Virus record (IMG/VR): IMGVR_UViG_3300028840_002437
Coordinates: 1-32,124 of that record
Length of the DNA: 32,124 nt
Source: a virus
Strand: one strand, 5' to 3'
The notes beneath the pieces were generated by a model. The model had not been told where the DNA came from. It saw only the letters and a list, made by a program, of their open reading frames with translations, and made no database searches. The position numbers and the translations under genes are program-made. Shown one piece after another: positions 4,485-30,878 of this stretch (position 1 is its first letter; each line of letters starts with the position of its first letter).

Positions 4485-4496
4485 TATATAGACGAC
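4485..4496 (-). promoter_or_regulatory. GTCGTCTATATA motif (copy a), leftward late promoter candidate
   Basis: An exact copy of the 12-mer GTCGTCTATATA is read on the minus strand and lies 102 nt before the first leftward late gene (start 4382). It forms the promoter-proximal end of the left 129-bp inverted repeat. The following 102-nt leader holds no obvious gene. If TATATA is the -10-like element, transcription would start near 4475-4480. Confidence 0.6.
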
Positions 4497-4613
4497 GGTG
4501 AACATTGAATGATTGGAAAGGGAGGGGGGATCAAATGATAATGGAGGAGTGCCTACATACCACAGCCCCAGAGGGACTTATACTCCAGACAGTTTTCCAT
4601 GAGGGGTCTTGAT
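4485..4613 (-). repeat. 129-bp perfect inverted repeat, left arm
   Basis: Read on the minus strand, 4613 to 4485 is identical, base for base, to 14804-14932 on the plus strand. It has no long open frame; a 15-codon frame is the longest starting at its ATG. It begins ATCAAGACCCC and ends exactly at TATATA of the promoter-like motif, so it probably carries upstream promoter or regulator-binding elements. The rest of the gene-poor stretch 4383-4865 holds the late leader (4383-4484), an AT-rich segment without visible features (4614-4723), a terminator and motif copy b. Confidence 0.93.
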
Positions 4614-4723
4614 TCTTGATTCTCGAATTGCAAATCACGAATCCATTATTATATGCAACCACATATGATATATGTCAATACACTACTATTATATGTAAAT
4701 GCATACTTGTCACTTTTCTCCTA

Positions 4724-4757
4724 TAACAAAGAAACCCCGTGCATTGCACAGGGTCTC
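4724..4757 (-). terminator. Leftward rho-independent terminator
   Basis: Read on the minus strand, bases 4757-4731 form an 11-bp stem (GAGACCCTGTG with its partner, including three G-T pairs) around a 5-nt loop, followed by a T-rich tail (TTTGTT). It would stop transcription from the lipoprotein gene (4866-5300) and from motif copy b before the 129-bp repeat. Confidence 0.65.
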
Positions 4758-4838
4758 TCACATGAAACTAAACTAAAAAACGTAAAACGAAAAACAGAAC
4801 TTTATGTCCAACCAGATAACAAATGTATAATTCTTCAC
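4724..4838 (-). ncRNA. Putative short phage RNA from motif b to terminator
   Basis: An exact GTCGTCTATATA motif at 4845-4856 points left and is followed, about 90 nt on, by the intrinsic terminator at 4724-4757. In between the only ATG opens a frame that stops after two codons, so no protein is encoded. If the motif is a promoter, it would yield an RNA of about 110 nt ending in the hairpin. The 5' end given here is a guess, placed 7 nt past TATATA. The existence of the RNA is inference. Confidence 0.35.
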
Positions 4839-4844
4839 TTCATT

Positions 4845-4856
4845 TATATAGACGAC
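4845..4856 (-). promoter_or_regulatory. GTCGTCTATATA motif (copy b), orphan
   Basis: This is an exact minus-strand copy with the CAAC prefix that it shares with copies e and f. It lies 9 nt past the stop of the lipoprotein gene. No gene follows before the terminator at 4757, so it is the only copy without an obvious protein-coding target. Confidence 0.55.
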
Positions 4857-4865
4857 GTTGAGACT

Positions 4866-5300
4866 TTAATGACTAAACAAATCATAAAGACAATCATTGT
4901 CACACTGTTTAAACCAATATGCATTAAACTCATGTGTTTCATAATCAACAATAATAATACCTGAAATTCTTGATTGATTAAATTGACCATCAAAAATCCA
5001 TCTATTGTCAGGACTTCTGAATTCAATGTTGTTTCCTTTTGCAATCACAGTGAAGAGACTTGATCTGTTGTCATAGGTGACAACAATATCATAAATATCC
5101 TCTGAACCTGTTGCATGAACATCAAACTCAAGCCTGATTGATTGTTCTTGAGAATTAATGACATCAACCTTATAAACACCCTCCTTCATTATATATGTGT
5201 GAGGTTCTTCAATCTCTTTCTCACATGATGTCAATGCTATAAATCCAAGCAATGCAATCAGCATCACTCCAATAATCTTAACTATTTTTAATGCTTTCAT
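4866..5300 (-). CDS. Phage-encoded lipoprotein
   Basis: The 144-aa product has a positively charged start, a hydrophobic core (about 6-22) and the lipobox L-T-S-C with the cysteine at 26, so it should be lipidated by signal peptidase II processing. The residues after the cysteine, E-K-E-I-E-E, are acidic, as in the export signals that place Bacteroidota lipoproteins on the cell surface. The rest is beta-rich with no known family. I chose ATG 5298-5300; an upstream ATG at 5342 would put the promoter-like motif c inside the coding sequence. It is a lone leftward gene with its own motif and terminator. A superinfection-exclusion or surface-changing role is plausible but is inference. Confidence 0.75.
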   Translation of the reverse strand: MKALKIVKIIGVMLIALLGFIALTSCEKEIEEPHTYIMKEGVYKVDVINSQEQSIRLEFDVHATGSEDIYDIVVTYDNRSSLFTVIAKGNNIEFRSPDNRWIFDGQFNQSRISGIIIVDYETHEFNAYWFKQCDNDCLYDLFSH

Positions 5301-5324
5301 AATACTTTGTGTTTTTTGTTCACT

Positions 5325-5336
5325 TATAAAGACGAC
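5325..5336 (-). promoter_or_regulatory. GTCGTCTTTATA motif variant (copy c) before lipoprotein gene
   Basis: This minus-strand site matches the motif at 11 of 12 positions and lies 24 nt upstream of the lipoprotein start at 5300. Its position and direction agree with a promoter. It is the reason for rejecting the longer reading frame that starts at 5342. Confidence 0.5.
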
Positions 5337-5356
5337 ATTCACATCTTAATTCAATA

Positions 5357-5712
5357 TTTAGGGAAGGAGGGAACATCAAGTTCCCTAAAATACCCTATTT
5401 AGGGAAGGTAAAAAGCACACCAAGTTCCCTACTTTTTTGTATTATATCAAGAGAGAACACCCATATATAGGGGTTTATTTTGTACTTTACAAGTTTAGGG
5501 AAGGAAGGGAAGCAAAATTCTTCCTATTATATATATATTTCGATGGTAAGTAAGTAAAGTATAAAAAATTATATCATATAGAAGATTTTACGTTCCCTAT
5601 GTTCCCCAAAGTGCTTATACTTACAGGAATCAATGTTTTCACCTCAATTTTAGGGAAGGAGGAGGGAAGGAGAACCCTATTTTAGGGAAGGAGAACCCTG
5701 TTTTAGGGAAGG
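5357..5712 (+). repeat. TTTAGGGAAGG repeat cluster (candidate origin or operators)
   Basis: Six direct copies of TTTAGGGAAGG begin at 5357, 5398, 5494, 5649, 5681 and 5702. Inverted partial copies (TTCCCTAAA at 5381, TTCCCTA at 5425) make hairpins with the first two. The last copies are spaced about 21 nt apart and share an AGGAGAA-type extension. The 586-nt stretch 5301-5886 has no convincing gene. Repeats of this kind between divergent units act as replication iterons or as operators; the sequence alone does not decide which. Confidence 0.6.
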
Positions 5713-5838
5713 AGAAAAGATGCAACACCGTTGCAAGTGTCCGAAAGTGGGACTCAACTGTCTCAAAAATGGACACCACTTTGCACCCTGTTATATATAA
5801 ATGTTCCAAATTTGCCGTTTTGTGTACATTTGGAATTC

Positions 5839-5864
5839 TGGCATGGTGTTTGCTGTATATATGG
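5839..5864 (+). promoter_or_regulatory. Early promoter-like element TGGCATG...GCTGTATATAT (first copy)
   Basis: TGGCATG, a short gap, then TTGCTGTATATAT is found here and again at 6918-6943, in both cases 20-25 nt before an early gene start. The TATATATGG/TATATATTG end is only loosely like the Bacteroides -7 box (TAnnTTTG). It is probably an early promoter read by the host polymerase. Confidence 0.45.
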
Positions 5865-5886
5865 CATGAACGAAACAAACAAGAAA

Positions 5887-6114
5887 ATGAAAAACAGAAA
5901 TTACACAATCAAGAGAGTCTATACAGGAGCATATGACTTTACATTAAAGGATGGGAGGAAGTTTAATGCAGAGAATTGCAGGACTTGTGGTATATCAAGA
6001 GTCAATGAGTGGATTTTGAGAGAAGGTCATATTATGGACTGTGAGACAGGTGACACATACTGTGGTCACTATGACACACTTGAGGAGATTAAAGAAACAC
6101 TTTGTAACCTTTAG
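5887..6114 (+). CDS. Hypothetical 75-aa early protein
   Basis: I chose ATG 5887 because its leader (acaaacaagaaaATGAAAAAC) is nearly the same as that of the next gene at 6163; an in-frame ATG at 5866 is inside the promoter-like element. The protein is soluble, with a lysine/arginine-rich start and five cysteines or histidine clusters (C-R-T-C-G near residue 32, D-C-E and Y-C-G-H further on) that could bind a metal. It has no known family. It is the first gene of the rightward early region, directly downstream of the TTTAGGGAAGG cluster, a place where takeover or regulatory proteins are common. Its stop codon lies in the hairpin element 6104-6133. Confidence 0.6.
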   Translation: MKNRNYTIKRVYTGAYDFTLKDGRKFNAENCRTCGISRVNEWILREGHIMDCETGDTYCGHYDTLEEIKETLCNL

Positions 6115-6133
6115 TGGTTACCTTTCGTATATA
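6104..6133 (+). promoter_or_regulatory. Early regulatory element with GTAACC/GGTTAC hairpin (first copy)
   Basis: A perfect 6-bp inverted repeat (GTAACC 6104-6109, GGTTAC 6116-6121) is followed by CTTTCGTATATA. The core GGTTACCTTTCGTATATA is repeated exactly at 12991-13008. Both copies contain the stop codon of the gene before them and lie 30-38 nt before a new gene, so they look like duplicated early promoters or operators. Confidence 0.5.
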
Positions 6134-6162
6134 AAGAGTATATATAATAAACAAACAAGAAA

Positions 6163-6912
6163 ATGAAAAACGGACAGCAACATATTATTGGATTTGGAGG
6201 ACAGTTCTGGACTCATTGGACTTCATACACTTGGGAAGAATACAGAGCAGATGGGACATCCTTTCAGAGGACAAGTCACACATATTTAAGGAACCTTTCT
6301 CACACACTTGAGGAGGCAGAAGAGGAAATGAAAAGGAGGGGAATTACTGATTATATTATTGATGAGGATTTAAGGGGAGAAAAGTGGACAACTCCAGATT
6401 ATGAGAGAGAGCAGATTGCACCTCATTTATTTTCAATTGGAGAACTGACAAATCAACCAATAATGGAGTCAGACAACTTGAAGTATTTATTTGGTGCATA
6501 TTTCAATGACAGTAATGCAAGAAGGAGAGTGTATGCAAGGAGGAGATTGATTAAACTTGGAGAACTGATCAAGCACCCTCACACTGATGATAATATCAAA
6601 AGGACATATATGTCAACAAAGAGATATAATGCAATTATTGAAAGGGCTGGCAGAAAGCATGGATATTTTTATGAAGATGGTGAAAGAATAGAAATCAAAC
6701 TCAAGGAGGTTGGATCATTCCACTTTGAAACTGTTTACGGTTTCATGTATATAGTGACATACCTTGATGAGACTGACAGAGTATTTAAATATAAGGGGAG
6801 CAATCCTCCTGACATAAGTCTTGATGAGTTTGTTTTGATCAAAGGAACCGTCAAGCATTCAGAATATAAAGGTAAGCAGGACACAATGTTACAAAGAATC
6901 AAAACACTATAA
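6163..6912 (+). CDS. Early protein with C-terminal KGTVK OB-like module
   Basis: The 249-aa protein has an N-terminal aromatic-rich part (1-60), an arginine-rich helical middle (about 105-165, with a R-R-R-V-Y-A-R-R-R-L segment) and a C-terminal beta module (about 185-248) containing D-E-F-V-L-I-K-G-T-V-K-H-S-E-Y-K-G ... T-M-L-Q-R-I-K. That K-G-T-V-K-x-H-x-x-Y-x-G ... T-x-L-x-R pattern recurs at the ends of many phage and plasmid DNA-metabolism proteins and looks like a small OB fold; I know no proven function. It has the same A-rich leader as the gene before it and lies behind the 6104-6133 element. Confidence 0.65.
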   Translation: MKNGQQHIIGFGGQFWTHWTSYTWEEYRADGTSFQRTSHTYLRNLSHTLEEAEEEMKRRGITDYIIDEDLRGEKWTTPDYEREQIAPHLFSIGELTNQPIMESDNLKYLFGAYFNDSNARRRVYARRRLIKLGELIKHPHTDDNIKRTYMSTKRYNAIIERAGRKHGYFYEDGERIEIKLKEVGSFHFETVYGFMYIVTYLDETDRVFKYKGSNPPDISLDEFVLIKGTVKHSEYKGKQDTMLQRIKTL

Positions 6913-6917
6913 ATAAT

Positions 6918-6943
6918 TGGCATGATTATTGCTGTATATATTG
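6918..6943 (+). promoter_or_regulatory. Early promoter-like element TGGCATG...GCTGTATATAT (second copy)
   Basis: This is the second copy of the element at 5839-5864. It starts 6 nt after the stop of the 249-aa gene and ends 22 nt before the start at 6966. The match covers TGGCATG and, 5-6 nt later, TTGCTGTATATAT. Confidence 0.45.
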
Positions 6944-6965
6944 AAAACACTTTAAATAATAAGAT

Positions 6966-7457
6966 ATGAAAACAAAAAAGAACGGACAAAGGGCATTCAA
7001 CAGTCACGACTATGACAAGTATGACTTTCCTGCAAGACAAGCACTCTGGAGTTATATCAGTGGTCTTGGTGACAACTGGACTCTATTATCAATGGAGGAG
7101 GAGTTCTGTGAACCTGACCTGAAGGTCACATGTGGCAATATGCCAATTAATTTTGAAATAGAGGTAAGGAGATGTTTTGACACTTACAAAAAACAGTTAT
7201 ATCATAGTGATCAAGATGCAACCATCACCATCCCTCACAGGAAGTTCCTGAACGGGACACTGAGAAAGACTGACTATTATATTGTAATGAATGAGTCATT
7301 TTCTGAGGCTATTATCATACCAAAGAGAGTCTTCAGGAATTATACATTCAATTTAACAGAGTCGGACTTTGGAGGAAGACTAAAGAAACCAGAACAATTC
7401 ATGAACATTCCAATGTCTGAGTTGTCATATATTGATAATCATATAAAGTTAAAGTAA
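6966..7457 (+). CDS. Hypothetical 163-aa protein, possible PD-(D/E)xK-like fold
   Basis: The protein is soluble. The segment from about 44 to 70 has E-P-D-L-K-V, a short gap, then I-N-F-E-I-E-V-R-R, which resembles the D ... (D/E)-x-(K/E) beta-hairpin core of restriction-endonuclease-like proteins. The order and spacing fit only loosely, and the usual final lysine is not clear, so I do not assign a nuclease function. A later conserved-looking part (about 93-125) has a strand-like T-D-Y-Y-I-V-M-N and a P-K-R-V-F segment, reminiscent of the substrate-side strands of such folds. It has its own promoter-like element and touches the next gene (stop/start at 7457). Confidence 0.6.
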   Translation: MKTKKNGQRAFNSHDYDKYDFPARQALWSYISGLGDNWTLLSMEEEFCEPDLKVTCGNMPINFEIEVRRCFDTYKKQLYHSDQDATITIPHRKFLNGTLRKTDYYIVMNESFSEAIIIPKRVFRNYTFNLTESDFGGRLKKPEQFMNIPMSELSYIDNHIKLK

Positions 7458-7909
7458 TGAAAAGAACAAAGAAACAAGCAGAAGAGTTGAAGTCCAACTT
7501 TTATGAATACCTGAACACTGGAAGTGACAGGATATTCACAAACAAAATTTATCCAGACCTTGTCAGCATCTTCAATGATGCAACAATGTATAAATACAAT
7601 CTAACACATGAAACCCTTGAAGACATCAGACAAGAGGCACTCATTAAGGTTGTGACAAAGGTCACTGTTGAGGCACTTGACAGGGTCAAGAATATTGACA
7701 ACTATCTCTTCAGGATGTTTGACAATTACACAAAGGATTATATCAAGGTGTCAGGAAGATATAAAAAGCATGTCAACAGGGTTGTTGATGGCTATATCAA
7801 GACAGGCAAGGAGTGGAACTCTGGACTCAGTTACAATGAGAATGAATTCCCTCAGTCACCTCATATAATACAGGGAGCAAGCAACCATAAACCTCAGAAG
7901 GATGACTGA
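7457..7909 (+). CDS. Sigma-70 region-2-like protein
   Basis: The 150-aa protein contains a segment that reads like sigma region 2 of small (ECF-type) sigma factors: T-L-E-D-I-R-Q-E-A-L-I-K-V-V (about 53-66, compare the E-D-x-x-Q-E motif of region 2.2) and, after a short loop, N-I-D-N-Y-L-F-R-M-F-D-N-Y-T-K-D-Y-I-K (about 79-97, compare the W-L-x-x-I-A-x-N-x-x-x-D-x-x-R motif of regions 2.3-2.4), then a basic helix. No region 4 follows; the last 40 residues are polar. It may bind core RNA polymerase or -10 DNA and could serve the GTCGTCTATATA sites, but this is inference. The ATG overlaps the stop of the previous gene and the last 8 nt overlap the HNH gene. Confidence 0.5.
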   Translation: MKRTKKQAEELKSNFYEYLNTGSDRIFTNKIYPDLVSIFNDATMYKYNLTHETLEDIRQEALIKVVTKVTVEALDRVKNIDNYLFRMFDNYTKDYIKVSGRYKKHVNRVVDGYIKTGKEWNSGLSYNENEFPQSPHIIQGASNHKPQKDD

Positions 7910-8231
7910 TGGACTCTGGTGGATTAAGGCAGAGAGTAAAGAACTGGAGAGGTTCAGGAGGGCTGTTTATAATTCAAAGGCATGGAAGAATGCAAGAGCA
8001 TATGTCCTTGCATCAAATCCATTTTGTGTCCACTGTGAAAGGGACAAGGGAATCTTGACAAGGGCTGTTGATGTTGACCACATTATCAATCTTGCAGAGA
8101 TCAAGAAGACAGGAAACACAGCACTTGCATTTAGCATTGAGAACCTTCAGGGATTATGCAAGAGTTGTCACAGCAAAAAATCATATAATGAATCATTAAA
8201 TAAAAACAACAATGAAAAGGAGAAAGATTAA
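7902..8231 (+). CDS. HNH endonuclease
   Basis: The 109-aa protein is a compact HNH nuclease. It has the first zinc pair C42-x-x-C45, the catalytic D59-H60 in V-D-V-D-H-I, N81 in I-E-N-L-Q and the second zinc pair C86-x-x-C89 followed by H90. The enzyme nicks or cuts DNA with one metal ion. In HK97-like phages, HNH proteins beside terminase assist packaging cleavage; here it lies in the early region, 6 kb from the terminase, so a role in host-DNA degradation or recombination is equally possible. It overlaps both neighbours (8 nt upstream, 20 nt downstream), which implies coupled translation. Confidence 0.88.
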   Translation: MTDGLWWIKAESKELERFRRAVYNSKAWKNARAYVLASNPFCVHCERDKGILTRAVDVDHIINLAEIKKTGNTALAFSIENLQGLCKSCHSKKSYNESLNKNNNEKEKD

Positions 8232-8499
8232 CAAGAACATTGCACCAGACACAGCAAAGAATATCATTATTGATGATCTGAAGGGAGTGTTTTCAATGGT
8301 GTGTATTGAGAAGGGACTTGTTCCCGTATTTGACTGCATCCCAAAGGGAACATGTGAGGAGACAATTATCTTTGCAACATGTCCAGAGTTTGTCGATGAG
8401 TTTAGCTGTCGTCTATACAGTAGAGAGGCAAAGTTGTCTCAATATCTGGTTTACATAGATGATAAACGTGAATTTTATAAAGACTTTCAAACCATATAA
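8212..8499 (+). CDS. Hypothetical 95-aa early protein
   Basis: The protein starts with a strongly basic stretch (M-K-R-R-K-I-N-K-N) and is otherwise mixed alpha/beta with three to four cysteines; I do not recognise a family. The start overlaps the end of the HNH gene by 20 nt in another frame, which is long but occurs elsewhere in this genome. A one-mismatch copy of the GTCGTCTATATA motif lies inside its coding sequence (8408-8419), where it is read as part of C-R-L-Y-S. It ends 1 nt before the next gene. Confidence 0.6.
   Translation: MKRRKINKNIAPDTAKNIIIDDLKGVFSMVCIEKGLVPVFDCIPKGTCEETIIFATCPEFVDEFSCRLYSREAKLSQYLVYIDDKREFYKDFQTI
8408..8419 (+). promoter_or_regulatory. GTCGTCTATACA, one-mismatch motif copy inside a gene
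   Basis: This plus-strand site matches the late motif at 11 of 12 positions and lies 81 nt before the membrane-protein gene at 8501. It might be a weak internal promoter or might be chance within a coding region. Confidence 0.3.
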
Positions 8500-8500
8500 A

Positions 8501-8761
8501 ATGAATACAGAATTTAAAGAGAAACTCAAGGAACTTGAGGAGGAACAGTCCAAGGGATATGTCCTCACAGTAATTTTAATCTATTATGTATTGATGGCAA
8601 TAGTTTATGCCGTAATATTTTGCACAGTCACAGCAGGTCTGATGCTTGTATTTAACAGTGTCATTGCTGTCATCTTTGCACTTCCGTTTATAACATTTGT
8701 TCAATCTGCTTATGTTGTCGGATTTGTTGCCCTTATTAAATATTTTAAAAACTTAATTTAA
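8501..8761 (+). CDS. Small two-helix membrane protein
   Basis: I chose ATG 8501, one base after the previous stop, rather than the in-frame ATG 8459 inside the upstream gene. The 86-aa protein has a charged start rich in E and K (about 3-18), then two membrane helices (about 20-45 and 48-75) joined by a short turn, with a K-Y-F-K-N end. No family is recognised. Together with the next gene, which has one membrane helix, it forms a small membrane pair expressed early, just before the primase-helicase gene. A role at the host membrane, for example exclusion or replication anchoring, is a guess. Confidence 0.6.
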   Translation: MNTEFKEKLKELEEEQSKGYVLTVILIYYVLMAIVYAVIFCTVTAGLMLVFNSVIAVIFALPFITFVQSAYVVGFVALIKYFKNLI

Positions 8762-8770
8762 CAACGTCTT

Positions 8771-9136: not shown

Positions 9137-9142
9137 AACACA

Positions 9143-9169: not shown

Positions 9170-9184
9170 ATTAAACAGATAACA

Positions 9185-11293: not shown

Positions 11294-11304
11294 AATACAA
11301 GGAT

Positions 11305-11514
11305 ATGAATACTATATTTAAGAAATATCCCAAGGAATTTTGGGATGATCCAGACATCAGACCGTTAATTGATAGGGAATATTATATCTATTGCAAGTAT
11401 ATTCTTGACATGTCCACATCATGCCACAAGGCAGAGGGTGCATCACATGGAATGAAGAAACTATCTATTGAAATAAGAAAACTCATCAAACAAAAACAGA
11501 AGGAAAATGAATAA
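11305..11514 (+). CDS. Hypothetical 69-aa early protein
   Basis: A small soluble protein with an aromatic first half (F-K-K-Y-P-K-E-F-W-D-D-P, E-Y-Y-I-Y-C-K-Y) and a basic helical C-terminal half ending in K-Q-K-Q-K-E-N-E. No family is recognised. It is 12 nt after the primase-helicase and overlaps the RecB-like nuclease start by 8 nt, so it may be a small partner or regulator of these DNA enzymes. That is inference from position. Confidence 0.6.
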   Translation: MNTIFKKYPKEFWDDPDIRPLIDREYYIYCKYILDMSTSCHKAEGASHGMKKLSIEIRKLIKQKQKENE

Positions 11515-12298
11515 GATACTATTGAACAAAAAGGCTGAACGTGTCCAGATCAGAGACACAAGATACTACACAGCAGACCATGACAAGTTCTTCCCATCGG
11601 TGACAACCGTCTTAAAGATGTGGAGTCCAGAACCACACCTCATTGAGTGGTTTAAGAATAATGGAAGAAACTCTGATATTCTTGTCAGGGAGGCTGGAGA
11701 GAGGGGAACAATTGTTCACAATGCAATTGAAGACCTCGTGAAGGGTGTTAAGTTGAATTATGAGGACATAAACAGACTTGACTGTTGGGAGATGATTGTT
11801 AAGTTCTCTCAGTTTATGGAGGCATATAAACCAACTGTTCAGGCAATTGAAGTCCAAATGGTTGACACTGGACTTGGTGTTGGTGGAACCCTTGACATGA
11901 TATGCACAATTGACGGTGTTGTGTGGCTGATAGACTTTAAGACATCAAACTATTTGTCAGACGTTATGAACATACAACTTGCAGTCTACAAAGAGATGTG
12001 GCAGAATGCATCAGGGATGAAAGTTGATGAGACAGGAATCCTGCACCTCAATGCAAAGACGAGGGGTGTCGTCTATAAAAGTAGGAAGGTTGAAGGAAAG
12101 ACAGTCAAAGAGGTTGACCGTTCAAAGATGCAGGGAAAGGGTTGGCAGGTTGTGCAACCAAAACTGTCACACACAGAACTCATGAAAGATTGGGATAACT
12201 TAAAATCTATTTATGACAGGAGACACCCAACACCTAAACCAGCAGACAGGGAGTTTCCAATGTATATTGAATTAAATAAAGACTCAATATTGAGTTAA
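11507..12298 (+). CDS. PD-(D/E)xK exonuclease, RecB/Cas4-like
   Basis: The 263-aa protein shows the ordered motifs of the RecB-like nuclease family: E65-R-G-T-I-V-H71 with a helix after it, E115 in A-I-E-V-Q, G127-T-L-D130, I-D143-F-K145-T-S and Q157-L-A-V-Y161 with the Q-x-x-x-Y spacing. D130, D143 and K145 should hold the metal-binding centre. No four-cysteine iron-sulfur cluster of the Cas4/AddB kind is visible. The enzyme most likely degrades or resects DNA during replication-linked recombination. It overlaps the preceding small gene by 8 nt and is followed 25 nt later by an SSB-like gene, a common replication-recombination grouping. Confidence 0.82.
   Translation: MNKILLNKKAERVQIRDTRYYTADHDKFFPSVTTVLKMWSPEPHLIEWFKNNGRNSDILVREAGERGTIVHNAIEDLVKGVKLNYEDINRLDCWEMIVKFSQFMEAYKPTVQAIEVQMVDTGLGVGGTLDMICTIDGVVWLIDFKTSNYLSDVMNIQLAVYKEMWQNASGMKVDETGILHLNAKTRGVVYKSRKVEGKTVKEVDRSKMQGKGWQVVQPKLSHTELMKDWDNLKSIYDRRHPTPKPADREFPMYIELNKDSILS
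12068..12079 (+). promoter_or_regulatory. GTCGTCTATAAA, one-mismatch motif copy inside a gene
   Basis: This plus-strand site inside the RecB-like gene matches 11 of 12 motif positions. The next gene starts 244 nt further on. It could be a weak internal promoter for the 12324-12548 gene or chance. Confidence 0.25.
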
Positions 12299-12680: not shown

Positions 12681-12989
12681 ATGAAAAACACACAAAACAC
12701 TGACAATCAGACACTTAGAGTTGGACAAAGGTTTCATTATACAGGTGATATGGCAAACCTTTCAACATTTGGAACAATTACAAAGGTAAGAGAGGACAAA
12801 GGATTTGGAATTTCTTATGATGTTATGTATGACGAACACAGATTTGAAGGTGACACACTCATTGGAGTTGTTGAACACAGGAGTTTCATTTGTGGTGGAG
12901 TTGGACAAAGATTCTTCACTCTGGAGGCATGGAAAGAAGTCCAAAGGAAAGCAAGAGAAAACTTTGCAAAGAAATTTGGCAACCTTTAA
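12681..12989 (+). CDS. Hypothetical 102-aa early protein
   Basis: The beta-rich protein has several Gly-rich turns (V-G-Q-R-F-H-Y-T-G-D, F-G-T-I-T-K-V, G-F-G-I-S-Y-D-V) and looks like a small SH3-like or barrel domain with repeated V-G-Q-R-F segments at the start and end. No family is recognised. Two further in-frame ATGs upstream (12618, 12660) exist; I prefer 12681 because it is nearest the A-rich ATGAAAAAC leader used by other early genes. It follows the 12569-12604 terminator, so it needs a promoter in 12605-12680. Its stop lies in the 12981-13008 regulatory element. Confidence 0.6.
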   Translation: MKNTQNTDNQTLRVGQRFHYTGDMANLSTFGTITKVREDKGFGISYDVMYDEHRFEGDTLIGVVEHRSFICGGVGQRFFTLEAWKEVQRKARENFAKKFGNL

Positions 12990-13008
12990 TGGTTACCTTT
13001 CGTATATA
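12981..13008 (+). promoter_or_regulatory. Early regulatory element (second copy)
   Basis: AACCTTTAATGGTT is followed by ACCTTTCGTATATA, the second copy of the element at 6104-6133. Here the inverted repeat is AACC/GGTT. It spans the stop codon of the gene before it and lies 37 nt before the winged-helix gene at 13046. Confidence 0.5.
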
Positions 13009-13045
13009 TAAAGTATAAACATTAAACAAACTAAAAAACAAGATT

Positions 13046-14517: not shown

Positions 14518-14721
14518 ATGGAACACTATCAAGAAATTTATGAGTCATTGCATGAGAAAGGATATAATCTCAAGCACCTGACAGACAAGATCACAGTCAG
14601 CAAGGCAGAATTGATTGACCTGATTGATCATCATGTCCAAAAATTAAGAAATATTGAGTTAAAAAAGGAGACCATTGATGTCACAGCCTTAGGCTCTGAC
14701 CGTTGGAAGAAATTCCTTTAA
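14518..14721 (+). CDS. Small early protein with a tail-tube-like C-terminus
   Basis: The 67-aa protein has an N-terminal helical part (1-46) with no known family. The last 21 residues, beginning I-E-L-K-K-E-T-I-D-V-T and ending W-K-K-F-L, are nearly the same as part of the tail-tube-type proteins at 22762 and 23187 (K-E-T-I-D-V-T ... S-D-G-W-K-E-F-L). At DNA level 55 of 63 bases match the 23187 gene. The similarity ends at the stop codon. It looks like a fragment copied from the tail gene and fused to an early gene, just before the terminator that ends the early region. Confidence 0.55.
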   Translation: MEHYQEIYESLHEKGYNLKHLTDKITVSKAELIDLIDHHVQKLRNIELKKETIDVTALGSDRWKKFL

Positions 14722-14778: not shown

Positions 14779-14811
14779 CCCATCAAGAACCCATCAAGAA
14801 CCCATCAAGAC
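14779..14811. repeat. Three 11-bp tandem repeats beside the right inverted-repeat arm
   Basis: Three copies of CCCATCAAGAA (the last ends in C) run directly into the right 129-bp arm. The left arm has two shorter ATCAAGA copies at the matching border. This could be a binding site for a regulator or a slippage product. Confidence 0.7.
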
Positions 14812-14932
14812 CCCTCATGGAAAACTGTCTGGAGTATAAGTCCCTCTGGGGCTGTGGTATGTAGGCACTCCTCCATTATCATTTGATCCCCCCTCCCTTT
14901 CCAATCATTCAATGTTCACCGTCGTCTATATA
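14804..14932 (+). repeat. 129-bp perfect inverted repeat, right arm
   Basis: This is the plus-strand copy of the sequence at 4485-4613 (minus). It begins ATCAAGACCCC and ends with the GTCGTCTATATA motif (14921-14932), 21 nt before the small-terminase start. It has no gene. Both arms point outward from the early region toward the two late operons, so identical upstream control of both late units is the simplest reading. Confidence 0.93.
14921..14932 (+). promoter_or_regulatory. GTCGTCTATATA motif (copy d), rightward late promoter candidate
   Basis: This exact copy closes the right inverted-repeat arm. The small-terminase start (14954) follows after 21 nt. It would drive the packaging, head and tail genes. 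Confidence 0.6.
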
Positions 14933-14953: not shown

Positions 14954-15310
14954 ATGGACAGATACAAGAAGAAAATGAAAGAAATAAAGGACTTCCTAAA
15001 GAGTAAGGGAGTGCTTGAGGATGTTGATACAACCTTGATTGATGAACTTGTGTTCAATCTCAGGTTATCAGACACAGCAAAGAAGGAAGTCTTTCCAGAT
15101 GGACAGGAGCCTGTCATCACTGTGAACATAAGAGAGATTGACAAGCAACCATACTATGTTGCAAACCCTGCAATAAAGATATATAATGAGGCACTCAAAA
15201 CAATCCGTTCAATATCAATCTCACTTGGATTGACACCAGCAGATAGAAAGAAACTTGGACTGCAAGACAAGAAAGAGGAGGAGGATGCACTTGACAAAAT
15301 TCTGAGTTAA
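14954..15310 (+). CDS. Terminase small subunit, P27 family
   Basis: I chose ATG 14954 (118 aa). A frame from 14912 also exists, but it would read through the promoter-like motif. The N-terminal half is basic and helical, as expected for DNA recognition. The C-terminal part contains N-P-A-I-K-I-Y-N-E-A-L-K-T-I-R and S-L-G-L-T-P-A-D-R-K-K-L-G, the conserved end of P27-type small terminase subunits. It should bind the packaging site on phage DNA and load it into the large subunit. It is the first gene of the rightward late operon. Confidence 0.82.
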   Translation: MDRYKKKMKEIKDFLKSKGVLEDVDTTLIDELVFNLRLSDTAKKEVFPDGQEPVITVNIREIDKQPYYVANPAIKIYNEALKTIRSISISLGLTPADRKKLGLQDKKEEEDALDKILS

Positions 15311-15677: not shown

Positions 15678-17382
15678 TTTATATGCAGAAGAACAGTGGA
15701 ATAAGGCAGAGGAGTTTATCAATGGTGTTGAATCAGGTGATATACTCTCCAATAAGTATGTCAAATTAGCTGTAAAGAGATACAAGAAAGACCTAAAGAG
15801 GGATGATCTAATATATGACAAGGAACTTGTGTTAAGAGTGTACAGATTCTTTTCACTGTTAAGAATTAACATTCAGAATGAGTATAAGCAATTTGAACTC
15901 CTCCACTTTCAGGCATTTATTATTGCAAACATTTATGGTTTTTATTGGAAGGAATCAGGTAAAAGACGTTTCAGGTATTCCTATATAGAAATGGCAAGGA
16001 AGGGAGGAAAGACAACCTTCTCTGCTGCCCTGTCATTATATCACTTCATTGCAGATGGTGAGATTGATGCACAGGTCTTATTCTTAGCCTCAACAAGAGA
16101 ACAAGCATCCATTGCCCTCAGATATGTCAAGGCAATCACATCAAATTCACCAACACTTCAAAAAAGAATTGACATCCTCCAATATCAGTTAAGATTTGAA
16201 TCTGCTGCAAAAGGGAGAAAGAGTGAATCCTTTCTCAAGCCACTCCCAAGTGTTGCAGACAGACTTGATGGATATTCAAATTCTTATGCCCTGATTGACG
16301 AGTATCATGCACACCCAAATGATGAAATTCTAAAGGTCATGAAAAGTGGAATGGGTGCAAGGAGAAACCCAATGATAAACATAATTACAACAGCAGGTTT
16401 TGACCTTGACAAACCTTGTTATTCTTACAGGGAAGGGGTGATCAACTTGCTCAGTGGAGAGGTTGAGGATGACTCATTATTTGGAATAATATTCACACTT
16501 GACAAGGACGACGACTACACAGACCCCTCCTGCTGGGTGAAAGCAAATCCAGCACTTGGACAAATACAGGACATTGATGACTTGATAATTGAGTTCAATC
16601 AAGCCAAAATCACACCATCATTATTGAACAATTTTCTCACAAAAAATCTTAATCTATGGATAAGTAATGAGAATACTTGGATTGAGGAGGAAGACCTTGA
16701 ACGGGTTTATAATCCTGATTTGAAACTTGATGACTTTATTGGTGAGGATTGTTACATTGGTGTTGACTTGTCCTCAACAAGAGACCTGACATCCTTCACA
16801 CTTCTATTTGAAAGGGACATGAAGTTCTTTGCTTTCCCTGTCTGCTATATGGCAAACCAACCATCAAAGAAGATCAGGAAGGGAGGAATTGATTTGTCAA
16901 GATGGATCAAGAAAGGACATATACATGAATGTCAGACCAAAACAATTGACTATGACCTTATGTTTAAGCACTTCGAGAGATGGTCTGAGATGTTTAATAT
17001 TGTTCAGGTTGGATATGACCCCTATAATTCAGACATGTTTGTCCCAAGGGTTGAATCAATTGGTGTTGACTGCACAAAGATGCCTCAGACAGCACCTGCA
17101 TTTAACTTCCCATTGAAGTTTCTTGAAAAGTTGATATATGATGATAATATTGAACTCACAAACCCTGTGACAAAGTGGAATTTCAGGAATGTTGTGTTGT
17201 ACTTTGATGGAAATGAGAACATGAAAATAATGAAGAACAAATCAAAGGACTCTGTTGATATTCCTGTCTCAATGGGAATGGCTGTTGCTATGTGGTTAAA
17301 GATTAATTATGATCCTGAACGTGTTGCAATGGAATCATATATCAGGTCACAGCATAAAGAAGGTTCAACGTCGTCTATATAG
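15667..17382 (+). CDS. Terminase large subunit
   Basis: The 571-aa protein has the two enzyme parts of a packaging motor. The ATPase has Walker A A110-R-K-G-G-K-T-T117, Walker B Y-A-L-I-D211-E212-Y-H and a coupling motif I-I-T-T-A-G (239-244). The nuclease part has the RNase-H-like acidic site G365-V-D367-L-S-S and a later G-Y-D451-P-Y-N. This is the Terminase_1 type (HK97/P27 group). It packs DNA into proheads and cuts it. The last residues, S-T-S-S-I, are encoded by the GTCGTCTATATA motif, whose final bases with the next G form the stop codon. Confidence 0.93.
   Translation: MTPDLYAEEQWNKAEEFINGVESGDILSNKYVKLAVKRYKKDLKRDDLIYDKELVLRVYRFFSLLRINIQNEYKQFELLHFQAFIIANIYGFYWKESGKRRFRYSYIEMARKGGKTTFSAALSLYHFIADGEIDAQVLFLASTREQASIALRYVKAITSNSPTLQKRIDILQYQLRFESAAKGRKSESFLKPLPSVADRLDGYSNSYALIDEYHAHPNDEILKVMKSGMGARRNPMINIITTAGFDLDKPCYSYREGVINLLSGEVEDDSLFGIIFTLDKDDDYTDPSCWVKANPALGQIQDIDDLIIEFNQAKITPSLLNNFLTKNLNLWISNENTWIEEEDLERVYNPDLKLDDFIGEDCYIGVDLSSTRDLTSFTLLFERDMKFFAFPVCYMANQPSKKIRKGGIDLSRWIKKGHIHECQTKTIDYDLMFKHFERWSEMFNIVQVGYDPYNSDMFVPRVESIGVDCTKMPQTAPAFNFPLKFLEKLIYDDNIELTNPVTKWNFRNVVLYFDGNENMKIMKNKSKDSVDIPVSMGMAVAMWLKINYDPERVAMESYIRSQHKEGSTSSI
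17370..17381 (+). promoter_or_regulatory. GTCGTCTATATA motif (copy e) before the portal gene
   Basis: This exact copy, with the CAAC prefix, is embedded in the last codons of the large terminase gene and ends 28 nt before the portal start. Because the motif dictates the last amino acids and the stop of the terminase, it was probably selected at DNA level. Confidence 0.6.
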
Positions 17383-19672: not shown

Positions 19673-19684
19673 GTCGTCTATATA
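19673..19684 (+). promoter_or_regulatory. GTCGTCTATATA motif (copy f) before the capsid gene
   Basis: An exact copy with the CAAC prefix lies in the 71-nt gap between the protease stop and the capsid start (19733), 48 nt before the ATG. A separate promoter for the most abundant virion protein is expected. Confidence 0.6.
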
Positions 19685-22761: not shown

Positions 22762-23169
22762 ATGGCAAATGAACATTTAAGTAAAACAGTCACAATAACC
22801 TATGCAGGAGAACCAATTGCAAGGTTGACAGGATGGAGTCTTGAAGTCAACAAGGAGACTGTTGACATAACAAATCTTGACTCAGATGGTTGGAAAGAAT
22901 TTCTTGTTGATCTCAAGGAGTGGTCAATCAGTTTTGATGGAATTGTTGTGAGACAAAGTGCAGCAGACTCAGAGAAGGATTATGAGGAATTGCTCAATGA
23001 ACTGTTAACAAATGACAGTGCAGTTGCAATCACACTTGTTGACACAGATGCATCAACAACTATTTCAGGAAGTGGATTTCTGACAGGAATTCCTCTGTCT
23101 GGAAGTGTTGGTGATAAGCAGACACATTCAGGGACACTTCAGGGAACAGGTGCATTATCAGTTGCTTAA
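22762..23169 (+). CDS. Tail tube protein (paralogue 1), TP901-1 type
   Basis: The 135-aa protein has the conserved core K-E-T-V-D-I-T ... S-D-G-W-K-E-F-L-V-D-L-K-E-W-S of the TP901-1 major tail family, followed by a second-half strand set with G-S-V-G-D-K-Q and L-Q-G-T-G. Tail tube subunits stack into the hollow tail. The gene right after it encodes a longer paralogue. Length (135) is near the family minimum. The start follows an A-rich leader without a clear ribosome-binding site. Confidence 0.85.
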   Translation: MANEHLSKTVTITYAGEPIARLTGWSLEVNKETVDITNLDSDGWKEFLVDLKEWSISFDGIVVRQSAADSEKDYEELLNELLTNDSAVAITLVDTDASTTISGSGFLTGIPLSGSVGDKQTHSGTLQGTGALSVA

Positions 23170-23186: not shown

Positions 23187-23825
23187 ATGGCAAATGAAAT
23201 TTTAAGCAAGTATTTAACCCTCAAGATTTGGGATGCAACTGCAAACAGTTGGAAGGTTGTTGCAAGGACTACATCTTATAATATTGAGTTGAACAAGGAG
23301 ACCATTGATGTCACATCCTTTGACTCTGATGGTTGGAAGGAATTCCTTGTTGATCTCAAGGAGTGGAGTGTGTCTGGTGATGCACTTGTCTTGAGAACTG
23401 CTGAAAGTGGAAAGATTAATTATGAGCAATTACTTCAGTCATTAATCGGATCAGATGAGAAACTTATTCTCCAGATGATCAATCCACTTGCACTGACAGA
23501 CTCCTCTGATGGGACTCAATATTCTCATGAGGTTGGGACTGTATATCTCACAGGTCTTCCACTTTCTGGAAGTATTGGTGACAAACAGACTTTCTCATTT
23601 ACACTGCAAGGGACAGGGAAACTTGTTTATGTTGCAGCTAAATATGATAGTCAAGCAGAAGCATTTGCAGCAGAAGCATCATTCAGTGAAGGTGATGTTA
23701 TTCTTGTTGTCAATGACATTGGAACAAATAACACTGGTTATTATGAAAGAACCTCAGACGGTTCTCCTGCAAGTTTTGGAGATGCTTGGACTGAGTATTC
23801 ATTTGGATCAGATGTAACAATATAA
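23187..23825 (+). CDS. Tail tube protein (paralogue 2) with C-terminal extension
   Basis: The 212-aa protein shares with the preceding one M-A-N-E, K-E-T-I/V-D-V/I-T, S-D-G-W-K-E-F-L-V-D-L-K-E-W-S, L-P-L-S-G-S-I-G-D-K-Q-T and L-Q-G-T-G-K/A. After about residue 150 it has an extra stretch (A-A-K-Y-D-S-Q-A-E-A-F-A-A-E ... F-G-D-A-W-T-E-Y), likely an exposed, Ig-like or decorating domain. The pair is a tandem duplication: one may be the tube and one a decorating or capping variant. A hairpin terminator (23829-23854) follows. Confidence 0.82.
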   Translation: MANEILSKYLTLKIWDATANSWKVVARTTSYNIELNKETIDVTSFDSDGWKEFLVDLKEWSVSGDALVLRTAESGKINYEQLLQSLIGSDEKLILQMINPLALTDSSDGTQYSHEVGTVYLTGLPLSGSIGDKQTFSFTLQGTGKLVYVAAKYDSQAEAFAAEASFSEGDVILVVNDIGTNNTGYYERTSDGSPASFGDAWTEYSFGSDVTI

Positions 23826-24593: not shown

Positions 24594-24599
24594 AGAGAG

Positions 24600-26330: not shown

Positions 26331-26335
26331 AATCA

Positions 26336-29300
26336 ATGGCATACGGAACAAAATATCAGGCAAAGTGGATTGACATTCATGGAACTGTCCATCAGATTGA
26401 CATTCTGGAAGATTCCTATTCTGGAGGGATAACAACAATAAGTGACTTTAAAGGAACACCAGTAAATATGAGGAGGAGATCATCAAAGACAGATGGATTC
26501 CTCACCATTGTAGGGACAGAGTTGACATTCTCGTTTATATCATCACCAAGTGACATTGCAACATATGATGCAATATTTGAAAGTGAGTTCAAGGATTATA
26601 GAGTTGACTTCTATGTGAACAGCAGTCTTGAGTTCAGGGGTTTCCTTCTCCCTGAAAACTTCAGCAGGGATTATGTTGACAATGGTGCAAACTATGTAAT
26701 AAAACTAACTGCAACAGATGGTCTTGCAAGATTGAAAAATATTGAGTATGCTGACAGTTCTGGTTTGGGCTATACTGACAGGGTCTCACTAATTACACAC
26801 ATTAAGAGAATCTTGACAGAGTTGGATTTTGTTGACAACCTTGACTTCATGATCCAGTTAAACACCTATGCAACAAACTCAAGTCTGATGACTTCAACTC
26901 AATGTGCATTGGATAAGGTGACAGCAGAGTCAAGGAGATTTGAGAAGGATGACGATGGAAGGAAATATCAGGACAACTGCTATGCTGTACTTGAAGAGAT
27001 TCTCAAGCCTTTCAATTGCACACTGATGCAGTCAGGAGGAAAGTGGTGGATTGTAAATTATCAAGAGCCTAACTCAAAGGTTTATTCTGTCCCTTGGACA
27101 ACACTGACATTCCCCTCATCTCCCTCAACATCTGACTTGAGGATTGACGGTTCATCCCTGAAGTTTCAGGGGAGAGGTTCAACAGAGAAGTTGAGACCAT
27201 TGGAGACAGTTGGTGTGAAGTTTCAGGACAGAAACCTTGGTGACAGTCTTTTTGATGACGGTGGATTTGACACAGGAACAGCAGATTGGAATCAGGGAAC
27301 AGGTCTCTCATACTTTGCAAGGGGTCTTGAGTCTGGAAATTACTATCTTGACACGAGAGCAAACAGTCCGACAACTGCAAAGAAATGGATTTATTCAGAC
27401 ACAGAAACCATCACAGGACTTCAGTCAGGTGATAAGTTAAAGATAAAATTTAGAGCAAGGGCAGGTGACATCACTTATACTGGTGGAGTACCTTATCAGG
27501 AGGCAGTACAAATCAGGGTGAACTTATATCAGGATGACGGTGACACACCAATTGAGGAGAACGGTGTTCTGTTTTCACCACTTGACATCAACACAAGAAC
27601 ACTGACTGAGGGTGAAGACTGGATGAGTGTTGAGGTTAGCTGGTCACTCCCTGTTGGAACTGAGAATTACAGAATAAGAATTGATCTTGAACCAATCTCC
27701 ATCCTTTCTGAGTCAGATTATACTGACATGGCAGCAGAGTTTGACGATTTTGAACTTGTTGTTGTTTATTCTGGTGTTGATATAACATTTGACAGGTATT
27801 ATGGTATTGAGAACACTGACAGTAACAATATTGACAGCAAGGAACTGAAGATCAAGTTTGGTGACTCTGTTCAGGACAGTGATGTTGGTGCTTTCAAGGT
27901 TGGAACAACAAGAACTTCAAGTTGGAACAGGTATGGAAAGACTGAAAATATATCAATTCAGCAACTGTGTGGACAGAACCTCCTTGAGTCATATGCATCA
28001 TATAAGAACTCAAGCAGGGTTAAAATTGTAGATATTAATGACAGCATAAGTCCTCACAACTGCATAACAATTGACTCGATTGATTATAAAATGATTGGGT
28101 TCTCTGTGTCTTTTAATTCTGGAGGATATAAGGTTATAAGTGCAGAACTTGAGGAACTCCTGACAGGTGCAGTGACATCCACAACAACACTGACTCCCCT
28201 TGATACTGTTGACGGGAAGGACACAGGAACTGAGAACCTGACATCTGCTCTGTTGATTCTTGATGACGGGAACACGTCAACTGCCTCCACTTGGAGTTCA
28301 AGCAAGATTGACAGTGAGATCACTGCTGCAAAGCAGTGGCTTGAAACAGGTAATGATTTATATTATACTGCTGGAAATATTGGTATAAACACAACACCAT
28401 CAAATAAGTTGACAGTCAAGTCAGACAAAACGAGTTCAACAACTGTCATTGCTGTGCAGAGGTCAACAGGGGTTGACGTTATCAGATTGAATCAGGATTC
28501 ATCAGGCAGGGGTTACATTGATATAAGGAATGCAAGTGGAGTAGTACAGAACAGGATTTATGGAGGTTCAAGTTCATACTTTCTTGGAGATGTTGGTTTT
28601 GGAACTTCATCTCCCTCAACAGGTTTTATTGATATTGTTGGGAAGACACTAAGAACAAGGGCAGGTGGTTCAATATTGTCAAGACAAGGGACAGCAGGTG
28701 TTGCACAAACATTATTAAACTGTCAGAACTCAACAGGAGGTGCAAGGTGCTTTGTTCAACAGGATTCAACAGACACACCAACATTCACAATGAGGAATGC
28801 CTCAGGGAGTAATAGAATATTCCTGAGACCTGACTCAGACTCATATATGTCCAATAATACAAAGTTGATGATTGGACACTCAACAGAGAAGGGAAGTGTG
28901 TTCTCATTTGAGGTCACTGGAAATGTTGATTTTACAGGATATTTACAGGTTGGGAATGCAACTGGTGGCAAGATACTTTATGACTCACCAACAAGCACAC
29001 TTCAATTTGGTTCAAGTGGAAATGCATATATTGACAATGACGATGACTCTGGATATGCAGCAGATTGGATTGCTACATCTGACAGGAGACTAAAGACAAA
29101 TATTGAATATGACAATAACTGGTCAAACTTGGTTGAGAAGGTTGGTGAGAAGACAGTCCGATTCAATTGGATTGGTGGTTATGGTTCAGCAAGGGATCAG
29201 ATTGGATTCATTGCACAAGACATATTCAGATTTATGCCTGAGGTTGTCTCTGTTGGTGGAAGGGGTCACCTCGGAATCTCATATGATAAAATGATTGCAC

Positions 29301-29383
29301 CGTTATATTCAGCAGTCTCACAGTTGATAAAAGAAAACAGAGTATTAAGGGAAGATATAAAGAAACTTAAAGAGAAAATATAA
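26336..29383 (+). CDS. Tail tip / fibre protein with S74 self-cleaving chaperone
   Basis: The 1015-aa protein joins three parts. The N-terminal part (about 1-300) is beta-rich and probably binds the tail end. A middle region (about 300-640) has carbohydrate-binding-like beta sandwiches. A Ser/Thr/Gly-rich repeat-like shaft follows to about 910. The C-terminus (915-1015) is a Peptidase_S74 intramolecular chaperone: S915-D-R-R-L-K-T-N-I and later G-F-I-A-Q-D ... G-I-S-Y-D-K-M-I-A-P-L. Such chaperones trimerise the fibre and then cut themselves off just before the serine, so mature fibre would end at 914. It likely binds the host surface. Confidence 0.85.
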   Translation: MAYGTKYQAKWIDIHGTVHQIDILEDSYSGGITTISDFKGTPVNMRRRSSKTDGFLTIVGTELTFSFISSPSDIATYDAIFESEFKDYRVDFYVNSSLEFRGFLLPENFSRDYVDNGANYVIKLTATDGLARLKNIEYADSSGLGYTDRVSLITHIKRILTELDFVDNLDFMIQLNTYATNSSLMTSTQCALDKVTAESRRFEKDDDGRKYQDNCYAVLEEILKPFNCTLMQSGGKWWIVNYQEPNSKVYSVPWTTLTFPSSPSTSDLRIDGSSLKFQGRGSTEKLRPLETVGVKFQDRNLGDSLFDDGGFDTGTADWNQGTGLSYFARGLESGNYYLDTRANSPTTAKKWIYSDTETITGLQSGDKLKIKFRARAGDITYTGGVPYQEAVQIRVNLYQDDGDTPIEENGVLFSPLDINTRTLTEGEDWMSVEVSWSLPVGTENYRIRIDLEPISILSESDYTDMAAEFDDFELVVVYSGVDITFDRYYGIENTDSNNIDSKELKIKFGDSVQDSDVGAFKVGTTRTSSWNRYGKTENISIQQLCGQNLLESYASYKNSSRVKIVDINDSISPHNCITIDSIDYKMIGFSVSFNSGGYKVISAELEELLTGAVTSTTTLTPLDTVDGKDTGTENLTSALLILDDGNTSTASTWSSSKIDSEITAAKQWLETGNDLYYTAGNIGINTTPSNKLTVKSDKTSSTTVIAVQRSTGVDVIRLNQDSSGRGYIDIRNASGVVQNRIYGGSSSYFLGDVGFGTSSPSTGFIDIVGKTLRTRAGGSILSRQGTAGVAQTLLNCQNSTGGARCFVQQDSTDTPTFTMRNASGSNRIFLRPDSDSYMSNNTKLMIGHSTEKGSVFSFEVTGNVDFTGYLQVGNATGGKILYDSPTSTLQFGSSGNAYIDNDDDSGYAADWIATSDRRLKTNIEYDNNWSNLVEKVGEKTVRFNWIGGYGSARDQIGFIAQDIFRFMPEVVSVGGRGHLGISYDKMIAPLYSAVSQLIKENRVLREDIKKLKEKI

Positions 29384-29682
29384 TGATAATAAAGTTAAAC
29401 ATACCAGACGAGTACATTCAAGACTTCATTGATTCTGAGTGTTACTGGAATATGTACAGAGACATGATTCCAAATCCTGAGTTTGATGACACACAGGACG
29501 AGAGTGAGGACAATCCAATGTTAATTCCAAACCCTAAAACAAAGGCACAATTTGCAAAGCAGTGCATTCCTTTAGTGTTAGGCAATAGGATGTTAAAGTA
29601 CAAGAGGATTGTTGTAAAGGAACAGACTGACATAAGTACTCAGGCTGAGGTTGATGGTATTAACATACATATTGAAGAATAA
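29383..29682 (+). CDS. Hypothetical 99-aa tail-associated protein
   Basis: A small acidic protein, with D-E-Y-I-Q-D-F-I-D near the start and an internal acidic stretch (D-D-T-Q-D-E-S-E-D). A V-V-K-E-Q-T-D-I-S segment is at the end. I recognise no family. It begins at the stop of the S74 fibre gene and shares its last base pair region with the next gene (start 29682), so it is coupled to tail genes and could be a fibre assembly factor. Confidence 0.6.
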   Translation: MIIKLNIPDEYIQDFIDSECYWNMYRDMIPNPEFDDTQDESEDNPMLIPNPKTKAQFAKQCIPLVLGNRMLKYKRIVVKEQTDISTQAEVDGINIHIEE

Positions 29683-30230
29683 TGAGTGTTGTTTTAAGTG
29701 GTAAAATTGGAATGCTTACTGATGAGACTGATGGAATCGGAAATGACAGGAGCATTGTCAGGGAGATTTATGGTTCTTTGTTGACAAACAAGGCACTAAA
29801 GGCAGACTGCTATAATGATGCAGACCCAACACCATCACTTGCAAACTCTCCAAGTGTTGCAATTACTGATTTTTATGCACACTCACAGTCAGATTATGGA
29901 ACTGTTGAGGCAAGGGACACCTCTTCTTATTCAGGCACTGCATATATAAGAGGGAGTGACAATTCTCAATTTGCTCTGACAGGTTCATTTGTCACTTGGT
30001 GGAATGCCACAGCACCAAAGCAAGACCTTGCAACTATCAGGGTATATAAAAACTCTACTCAGGGCAGTTTCTCAGAACTTGACCAAGTAAAGTTGGTATG
30101 TTCAAGGAGAACAAAGGGGAGTGGATTGTTCAGCATATATCAAACACTTGATCCATATACCTCAGGGGTTGTCTCACTTGTTGTTGAGACTTATGATTAT
30201 AGATTTGATTTACAGGACTCAGGTATTTAA
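29682..30230 (+). CDS. Beta-rich virion protein (182 aa)
   Basis: The protein is beta-patterned and rich in Ser, Thr, Tyr and Gly, with no charged helix, signal peptide or membrane segment. It looks like a small virion or fibre component. No family is recognised. It follows the 99-aa gene by overlap and precedes the small membrane protein gene. Confidence 0.55.
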   Translation: MSVVLSGKIGMLTDETDGIGNDRSIVREIYGSLLTNKALKADCYNDADPTPSLANSPSVAITDFYAHSQSDYGTVEARDTSSYSGTAYIRGSDNSQFALTGSFVTWWNATAPKQDLATIRVYKNSTQGSFSELDQVKLVCSRRTKGSGLFSIYQTLDPYTSGVVSLVVETYDYRFDLQDSGI

Positions 30231-30254
30231 TTAACCTTTAAAAACTATATAAAA

Positions 30255-30443
30255 ATGATTGGTGAAATATTAGGAATTGTAATTGCTCTGTGTGTGTTTG
30301 GTTTATTCATATACAGGTATGTCCAACTGAAGAAAAATGGTTGGAGTATTAAGGATATGTGGAACTTTAAAAAGCACCCTATTAAGAAGGATGTGAAGTC
30401 TGGAGGAGGAGGGTCTTCTAAACAATTAGAACAACAAAAATAA
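30255..30443 (+). CDS. Small membrane protein, last gene of the rightward late operon
   Basis: The 62-aa protein has one N-terminal membrane helix (about 4-24), a basic middle (K-K-N-G-W, K-K-H-P-I-K-K) and a flexible S-G-G-G-G-S-S end. No family is recognised. It may act in lysis as a small holin-like or regulatory protein, because the other late operon's lysis genes run toward it. A terminator follows. Confidence 0.6.
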   Translation: MIGEILGIVIALCVFGLFIYRYVQLKKNGWSIKDMWNFKKHPIKKDVKSGGGGSSKQLEQQK

Positions 30444-30464
30444 TTCTATGTTCCTTGTGTTTTT

Positions 30465-30500
30465 AGGGGAGATGTGGTCAGGCTACACTCCCCTTATTTT
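30465..30500 (+). terminator. Rightward late terminator
   Basis: AGGGGAG (30465-30471) pairs with CTCCCCT (30488-30494), extended inside by TGTGG/CTACA with one G-T pair, and is followed by TATTTTTT. It ends the rightward late operon. The converging leftward operon has its own terminator beside it (30507-30532). Confidence 0.92.
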
Positions 30501-30506
30501 TTGGAC

Positions 30507-30532
30507 AAAAAAAAGAGGACTTAATCCTCTTT
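30507..30532 (-). terminator. Leftward late terminator
   Basis: Read on the minus strand, AAAGAGGA and TCCTCTTT form an 8-bp stem around a 5-nt loop, followed by a T-run (complement of 30507-30514). The loop contains the stop codon of the 30521-30700 gene. It ends the leftward late operon. Confidence 0.88.
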
Positions 30533-30700
30533 CTCTTTCTTTTCTTTCAGAGACTCATCTCTTTCAGCCTTCATTTTTTCTCTTGCTTCCTGTGTCCTTG
30601 CCTGAAAGAATCCAATTAAATTGTGAACCATCTTATAAGGCATTTCTTCAAGCTGCCTCATTATTGAGGTTGCTTCCTGTTCACTGATTTCTATGTTCAT
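30521..30700 (-). CDS. Small charged protein (59 aa), last gene of the leftward operon
   Basis: I chose ATG 30698-30700, which overlaps the TGA of the membrane-protein gene as ATGA and has AGAAGG upstream; a longer frame from 30775 would overlap that gene by 79 nt. The protein is acidic then basic, helical, with E-Q-E-A-T-S-I-M-R-Q-L-E-E-M-P-Y and a K-E-K-K-E-K-E-D end. No family is recognised. Stop and terminator stem overlap. Confidence 0.6.
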   Translation of the reverse strand: MNIEISEQEATSIMRQLEEMPYKMVHNLIGFFQARTQEAREKMKAERDESLKEKKEKED

Positions 30701-30852
30701 ACCTTCTTGTTTAAATAGTTTATTACTCTTCTTTTTGCTCTCTTCAGTTGCTTTTTTATTACTGGTTTCAACCATTTTAATATCTCAACAATAGCAAGTG
30801 CATTGAGAATTGAACCTGTAATAATAACCGACAATAAAATAATTCCTGTCAT
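30697..30852 (-). CDS. Small membrane protein downstream of motif g
   Basis: I chose ATG 30850-30852 (51 aa). It has GGAGG 5-6 nt upstream and lies 14 nt from motif copy g; a longer frame from 30930 would run over the motif and the end of the virion gene. The protein has one hydrophobic helix (about 2-28, I-I-L-L-S-V-I-I-T-G-S-I-L) and a strongly basic tail (K-K-Q-L-K-R-A-K-R-R). No family is recognised. It is one of the few genes here with a clear Shine-Dalgarno-like box. Confidence 0.6.
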   Translation of the reverse strand: MTGIILLSVIITGSILNALAIVEILKWLKPVIKKQLKRAKRRVINYLNKKV

Positions 30853-30866
30853 ATTTCCTCCTTTAT

Positions 30867-30878
30867 TATATAGACGAC
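30867..30878 (-). promoter_or_regulatory. GTCGTCTATATA motif (copy g)
   Basis: An exact minus-strand copy in the 28-nt gap between the 330-aa virion gene and the small membrane-protein gene. It would drive the last two genes of the leftward unit separately. Confidence 0.6.

Follow-up and report, generated by a model that had tools for sequence, protein, structure and literature searches.

The window analyzed here, a virus record 32,124 bases long, carries repeated copies of the 12-mer GTCGTCTATATA. Six copies are exact, which makes it the commonest 12-mer of the genome, and a seventh site has one mismatch (TTTATA). On the forward strand, exact copies are located at 14921-14932, 21 nt before the small terminase gene (ATG at 14954), at 17370-17381, overlapping the end of terL and 28 nt before the portal gene, and at 19673-19684, in an intergenic region 48 nt before the major capsid gene. 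On the reverse strand, the copy at 4485-4496 precedes a leftward open reading frame (ORF) of 50 amino acids (4230-4382) and the lysis/tail operon by 102 nt, and the copy at 30867-30878 is found 14 nt before a membrane-protein-like ORF of 51 amino acids (30697-30852). The copy at 4845-4856 (−) has the same direction as the 4485 site and lies upstream of it, and the next ATG follows after 462 nt. The mismatched site at 5325-5336 (−) is 24 nt away from a lipoprotein-like ORF (4866-5300). The original prediction had taken these seven sites and two further one-mismatch copies, at 8408-8419 (+) and 12068-12079 (+), to be a phage-specific late promoter class. On recount, the coordinates, strands and mismatch counts of all nine copies were correct.

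In 100 genomes simulated with a third-order Markov model, the count of the most frequent 12-mer was 2-4, compared to 6 for GTCGTCTATATA. When up to two mismatches were allowed, 11 sites were present versus 0.82 expected, and none of 100 shuffles reached 11, which confirmed the predicted over-representation. Beyond the 12-mer, the sites have the columns S-A-N-Y upstream and R-N-W-R-A-R downstream in common, and the extended form is SANYGTCGTCTATATARNWRAR. A weight matrix of 22 columns was made from six sites in the window and two in the relative L002, eight in total without duplicates. Scanning the window with this matrix resulted in seven sites with 25-31 bits, namely the portal (30.7), capsid (29.5), terminase (29.1), 4485 (29.0), 4845 (28.9), 30867 (27.1) and 5325 (25.2) sites, while the next best site had 17 bits and chance maxima in simulated genomes reached 17.6 bits. 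The copies at 8408 (17.3 bits; inside ORF 8212-8499 and 39 nt before ORF 8459-8761) and 12068 (17.1 bits; inside the exonuclease ORF 11507-12298 and probably due to chance) both lie within ORFs. Since their scores of about 17 bits are in the range of the simulated genomes, they are indistinguishable from chance and should be dropped or held doubtful, so that seven of the nine predicted members hold.

The sites at 4485 and 14921 are not independent, since both belong to one inverted duplication with arms at 4485-4620 (−, 136 bp) and 14793-14932 (+, 140 bp) that are 97% identical. Each arm ends at the putative promoter, which points outward from the early gene block. This leaves five independent exact sites and the 5325 site. 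The duplication flanks the whole early block and could permit an inversion of about 10 kb or mislead short-read assembly. L001, a contig from a different sample that belongs to the same phage, starts within the inverted repeat; this is thus a point where assemblies can break, and it is uncertain how the 10-kb early block is oriented to the arms.

For five of the six exact copies, a start on the same strand follows within 110 nt; of all strand positions, 8.7% have a start this close (P ~2e-5; 2e-4 without the duplicated copy). The genes faced by the sites (small terminase, portal, capsid, lysis and leftward genes) are middle or late genes by their predicted roles. No convincing site was found by the matrix scan of the window upstream of the replication genes, which comprise a VapE-type primase/helicase, an exonuclease and an HNH gene. 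A sharp block of 12 bp before genes on both arms would also be expected for an operator that is bound by a phage repressor or activator and is not itself the polymerase contact. However, the element is not palindromic, its orientation to transcription is always the same, the sites (4845 excepted) are 14-102 nt from starts, and the shared purine pattern following the element is as expected near a transcription start site, which makes an operator very unlikely. An RNA signal in late transcripts, for example a processing or antitermination site, would explain why every copy is on the transcribed strand. We consider such a signal still less probable, since no conserved fold was predicted around the sites, no base pairs were supported, and the 30867 and 5325 sites are only 14 and 24 nt before a start and have an A/T-rich, promoter-like composition.

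Searches of viral contigs with the capsid, portal, primase, phosphoesterase, 6163 and sigma-like proteins yielded L001, L002 and L088 as the only relatives, and two scans of genome contigs gave distant terminases only. L002 shows 74% DNA identity to the window over 5.7 kb and has the 12-mer letter for letter before the portal and the capsid gene, i.e., at both sites it covers; the overlapping contig L088 has it before the capsid gene. The presence of the motif in related phages had been proposed as a check, and its outcome was positive. Over the whole alignment of the window and L002, 6.7% of the 12-base windows are identical. At the intergenic capsid site, identity ends at the edges of the motif and the flanks have diverged. 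The portal site overlaps the terL stop, and coding constraint therefore contributes to conservation there. When 2.9 million viral contigs of IMG/VR were scanned for the extended motif, contigs with more than one copy came from this lineage only, so the signal is lineage-specific. The other matching contigs had single matches at chance level. We rejected L087 as a relative; it encodes a GTP cyclohydrolase-like protein with nine N-terminal residues in common. The capsid of Cellulophaga phage phi39:1 is distantly related, and the repeated 12-mers of this phage, judged by eye, look like coding repeats and not like promoters. Functionless chance repetition or spread of a repeat could account for the two copies that do come from one duplicated block, but the remaining copies have only the motif in common, and the motif is over-represented and retained in the relative. 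This explanation has almost no probability.

The phage probably infects a member of Bacteroidota, because the primase has a BT4734-like_N domain and one ORF reads as a Bacteroidota lipoprotein. The motif does not match the sigma-A promoters of Bacteroidota (TAnnTTTG), the probable housekeeping type of this host, and the full pattern (TTTG at -33, TAnnTTTG at -7) had no match in the window. The predicted dissimilarity to the Bacteroides -33/-7 promoter was thus borne out. No set of columns is conserved across the sites at -35 spacing. The late promoter element of phage T4 is a different sequence from the motif found here. The only ORFs of more than 600 amino acids in the window encode the VapE-type primase/helicase and a tail-region protein of 1015 amino acids (the latter by reading), and a T7-like single-subunit RNA polymerase is not among them.

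The original prediction did not say which factor reads the motif. A candidate for a phage-encoded sigma factor is the product of ORF 7457-7909 (+) in the early rightward operon, a protein of 150 amino acids with a predicted sigma-70 region 2 of the extracytoplasmic function (ECF) type and without region 4. It matched the NCBIfam models TIGR02937 (sigma70-ECF) with 4.4e-5 and TIGR02985 (a Bacteroidetes family) with 9.8e-5, and Pfam Sigma70_r2 with 0.0054. For calibration, the proven sigma factor phi32_gp36 of phage phiEco32 gave 4.1e-5 on TIGR02937 and 0.002 on Pfam, and gp55 of T4 gave nothing on TIGR02937 and 0.087 on Pfam. By these models, the predicted region 2 is comparable to that of phi32_gp36 and stronger than that of gp55. 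The reversed sequence of the protein and the neighboring ORFs did not match any sigma model. When 395 genomes of the phylum were searched in six frames, 7 of 14 matches read as ECF-like sigma factors; of the four scanned, two had regions 2 and 4, one had region 2 alone and one had no Pfam match. Alignment by hhalign to six ECF sigma factors gave 95.9%, in region 2 only, compared to 0.1% for a neighboring ORF. The similarity spans approximately residues 24 to 116, corresponding to region 2. Region 4 was not found in the protein; its last residue, 150, falls where this region starts in full-length relatives of the ECF type. No match to the protein was detected among the phages or plasmids searched.

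Sigma factors and promoters of similar architecture are known from other systems. Single-element promoters are read by phi32_gp36, a sigma without region 4, and their want of a -35 element was attributed to this absence (PMC8948821). The middle and late promoters of phiEco32 (tAATGTAtA, PMC8948821) resemble the sites described here in having one conserved block and no -35 element and in being located before structural or late genes. Like the 150-aa protein, phi32_gp36 has no homology to region 4, and its score on the general sigma model is nearly equal; the absence of both region 4 and a conserved -35 element is common to the two systems. They differ in the sequence and length of the element (here 12 bp with GTCGTC), in the size of the protein (214 versus 150 amino acids) and in the phage itself, which here has a genome of about 31.7 kb and a probable Bacteroidota host. 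The identity of the 150-aa protein to phi32_gp36 was 25% in a gappy three-way alignment, and we claim likeness for the architecture only. The late sigma factor gp55 of T4 resembles sigma in domain 2 only (PMC2988020), and is a small sigma with this restricted similarity, as the 150-aa protein is predicted to be (PMC2988020, PMC7892883). T4 uses in addition gp33 and the sliding clamp gp45, for which gp55 has a C-terminal epitope, whereas no such partner turned up among the scanned proteins of the window, in which no dedicated search for one was made.

ECF sigma factors are the nearest relatives of the 150-aa protein, and Bacteroidota ECF promoters have CGT(C) in the -10 region, a sequence that the motif also contains. 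In Flavobacterium psychrophilum, a CGT box at -10 (motif SM6) marks ECF promoters (PMC9723704). ECF sigma factors, in contrast to the 150-aa protein, possess region 4, and they normally contact a -35 element. The putative late promoters might instead be read by a sigma factor of the host, possibly of the ECF type, or by sigma-A together with a phage activator at GTCGTC, with the 150-aa protein doing another job. This is unlikely, as an ECF sigma of the host should depend on its -35 element, which is not conserved at the sites, the sigma-A box is missing from the motif, and the phage encodes a sigma-like protein of its own.

A phage-specific late promoter class remains the best reading of the motif, in view of its over-representation, its strand and position and its retention in the relative. 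We consider it likely that this is a class of single-element promoters read by host RNA polymerase carrying the 150-aa phage protein. The 150-aa protein would be made from the early rightward operon and bind the core of the host RNA polymerase, and the sigma-bearing polymerase would open the DNA at GTCGTCTATATA without a -35 contact. Transcription would start a few bases downstream of the element, perhaps in the purine-rich RNWRAR. In the rightward direction, this would switch on the small and large terminase, portal, capsid and tail genes, and in the leftward direction the lysis/tail-region and lipoprotein genes. The promoter function of the motif, its late timing, its reading by this protein and the location of the start are what we infer from sequence. 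The predicted division into TATATA as the -10 and GTCGTC as an upstream contact could not be established. Since a CGT box occupies the -10 position in Flavobacterium ECF promoters and the motif contains CGTC, the -10 core may instead be CGTC, with TATATA as the stretch that melts; the two divisions are equally possible.

Several observations weigh against this interpretation. All matches of the 150-aa protein to sigma models were below the curated cut-offs, and the homology is weak in absolute terms. The ECF set that gave 95.9% with hhalign consisted of the best matches of the same query. A structure model from the single sequence was poor (pLDDT 45, a model confidence score) and unfit for a fold search. 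Conservation was seen in a single relative and at two sites, and at one of these the motif overlaps the terL stop codon. The L002 and L088 contigs do not cover the early region, and the pairing of sigma gene and motif was therefore seen in one phage. Finally, no ORF of at least 40 amino acids follows directly downstream of the 4845 site, which may feed the 4485 transcript.

Other features of the window were also observed. Its ends, 1-373 and 31738-32124, overlap by about 380 bases with 91% identity and one 14-base insertion, and the genome is therefore either circularly permuted or terminally redundant, its unit measuring about 31.7 kb. Besides this insertion, a stretch of some 110 bases has diverged between the ends, which look as if two strain variants had been joined there. 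A second promoter-like block is present in two copies that are 82% identical (6091-6163 and 12968-13038, +) and end at or just before start codons (6163 and 13046). It has a GTAACC-TTTAGT-GGTTAC palindrome followed by TTTCGTATATA, and might be a promoter of the early or middle type combined with an operator. Six copies of TTTAGGGAAGG, all on one strand, occur at 5357-5712 (+), where leftward and rightward genes diverge; they may be origin iterons or repressor operators. A fragment at 14650-14718, before the terminase genes, is 88% identical to part of gene 23187-23825 and is a decayed duplicate. This gene and its paralogue 22762-23169 look like the tail-tube type.

Bacteroidota have unusual housekeeping promoters, but a limited search of the open-access literature found no phage-specific promoter class described for Bacteroidota phages. 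The 12-bp element and the candidate sigma factor of 150 amino acids form a directly testable pair, with possible use as an orthogonal expression switch in Bacteroidota. It is conceivable, though doubtful, that an ECF region 2 without region 4 is the smallest sigma-like factor seen to drive a whole late program, here in a Bacteroidota phage whose element has a double GTC, and that region 2 alone suffices for promoter choice and opening without a clamp or coactivator. If our interpretation is true, the combination of a sigma factor lacking region 4 with single-element promoters recurs outside the coliphages.
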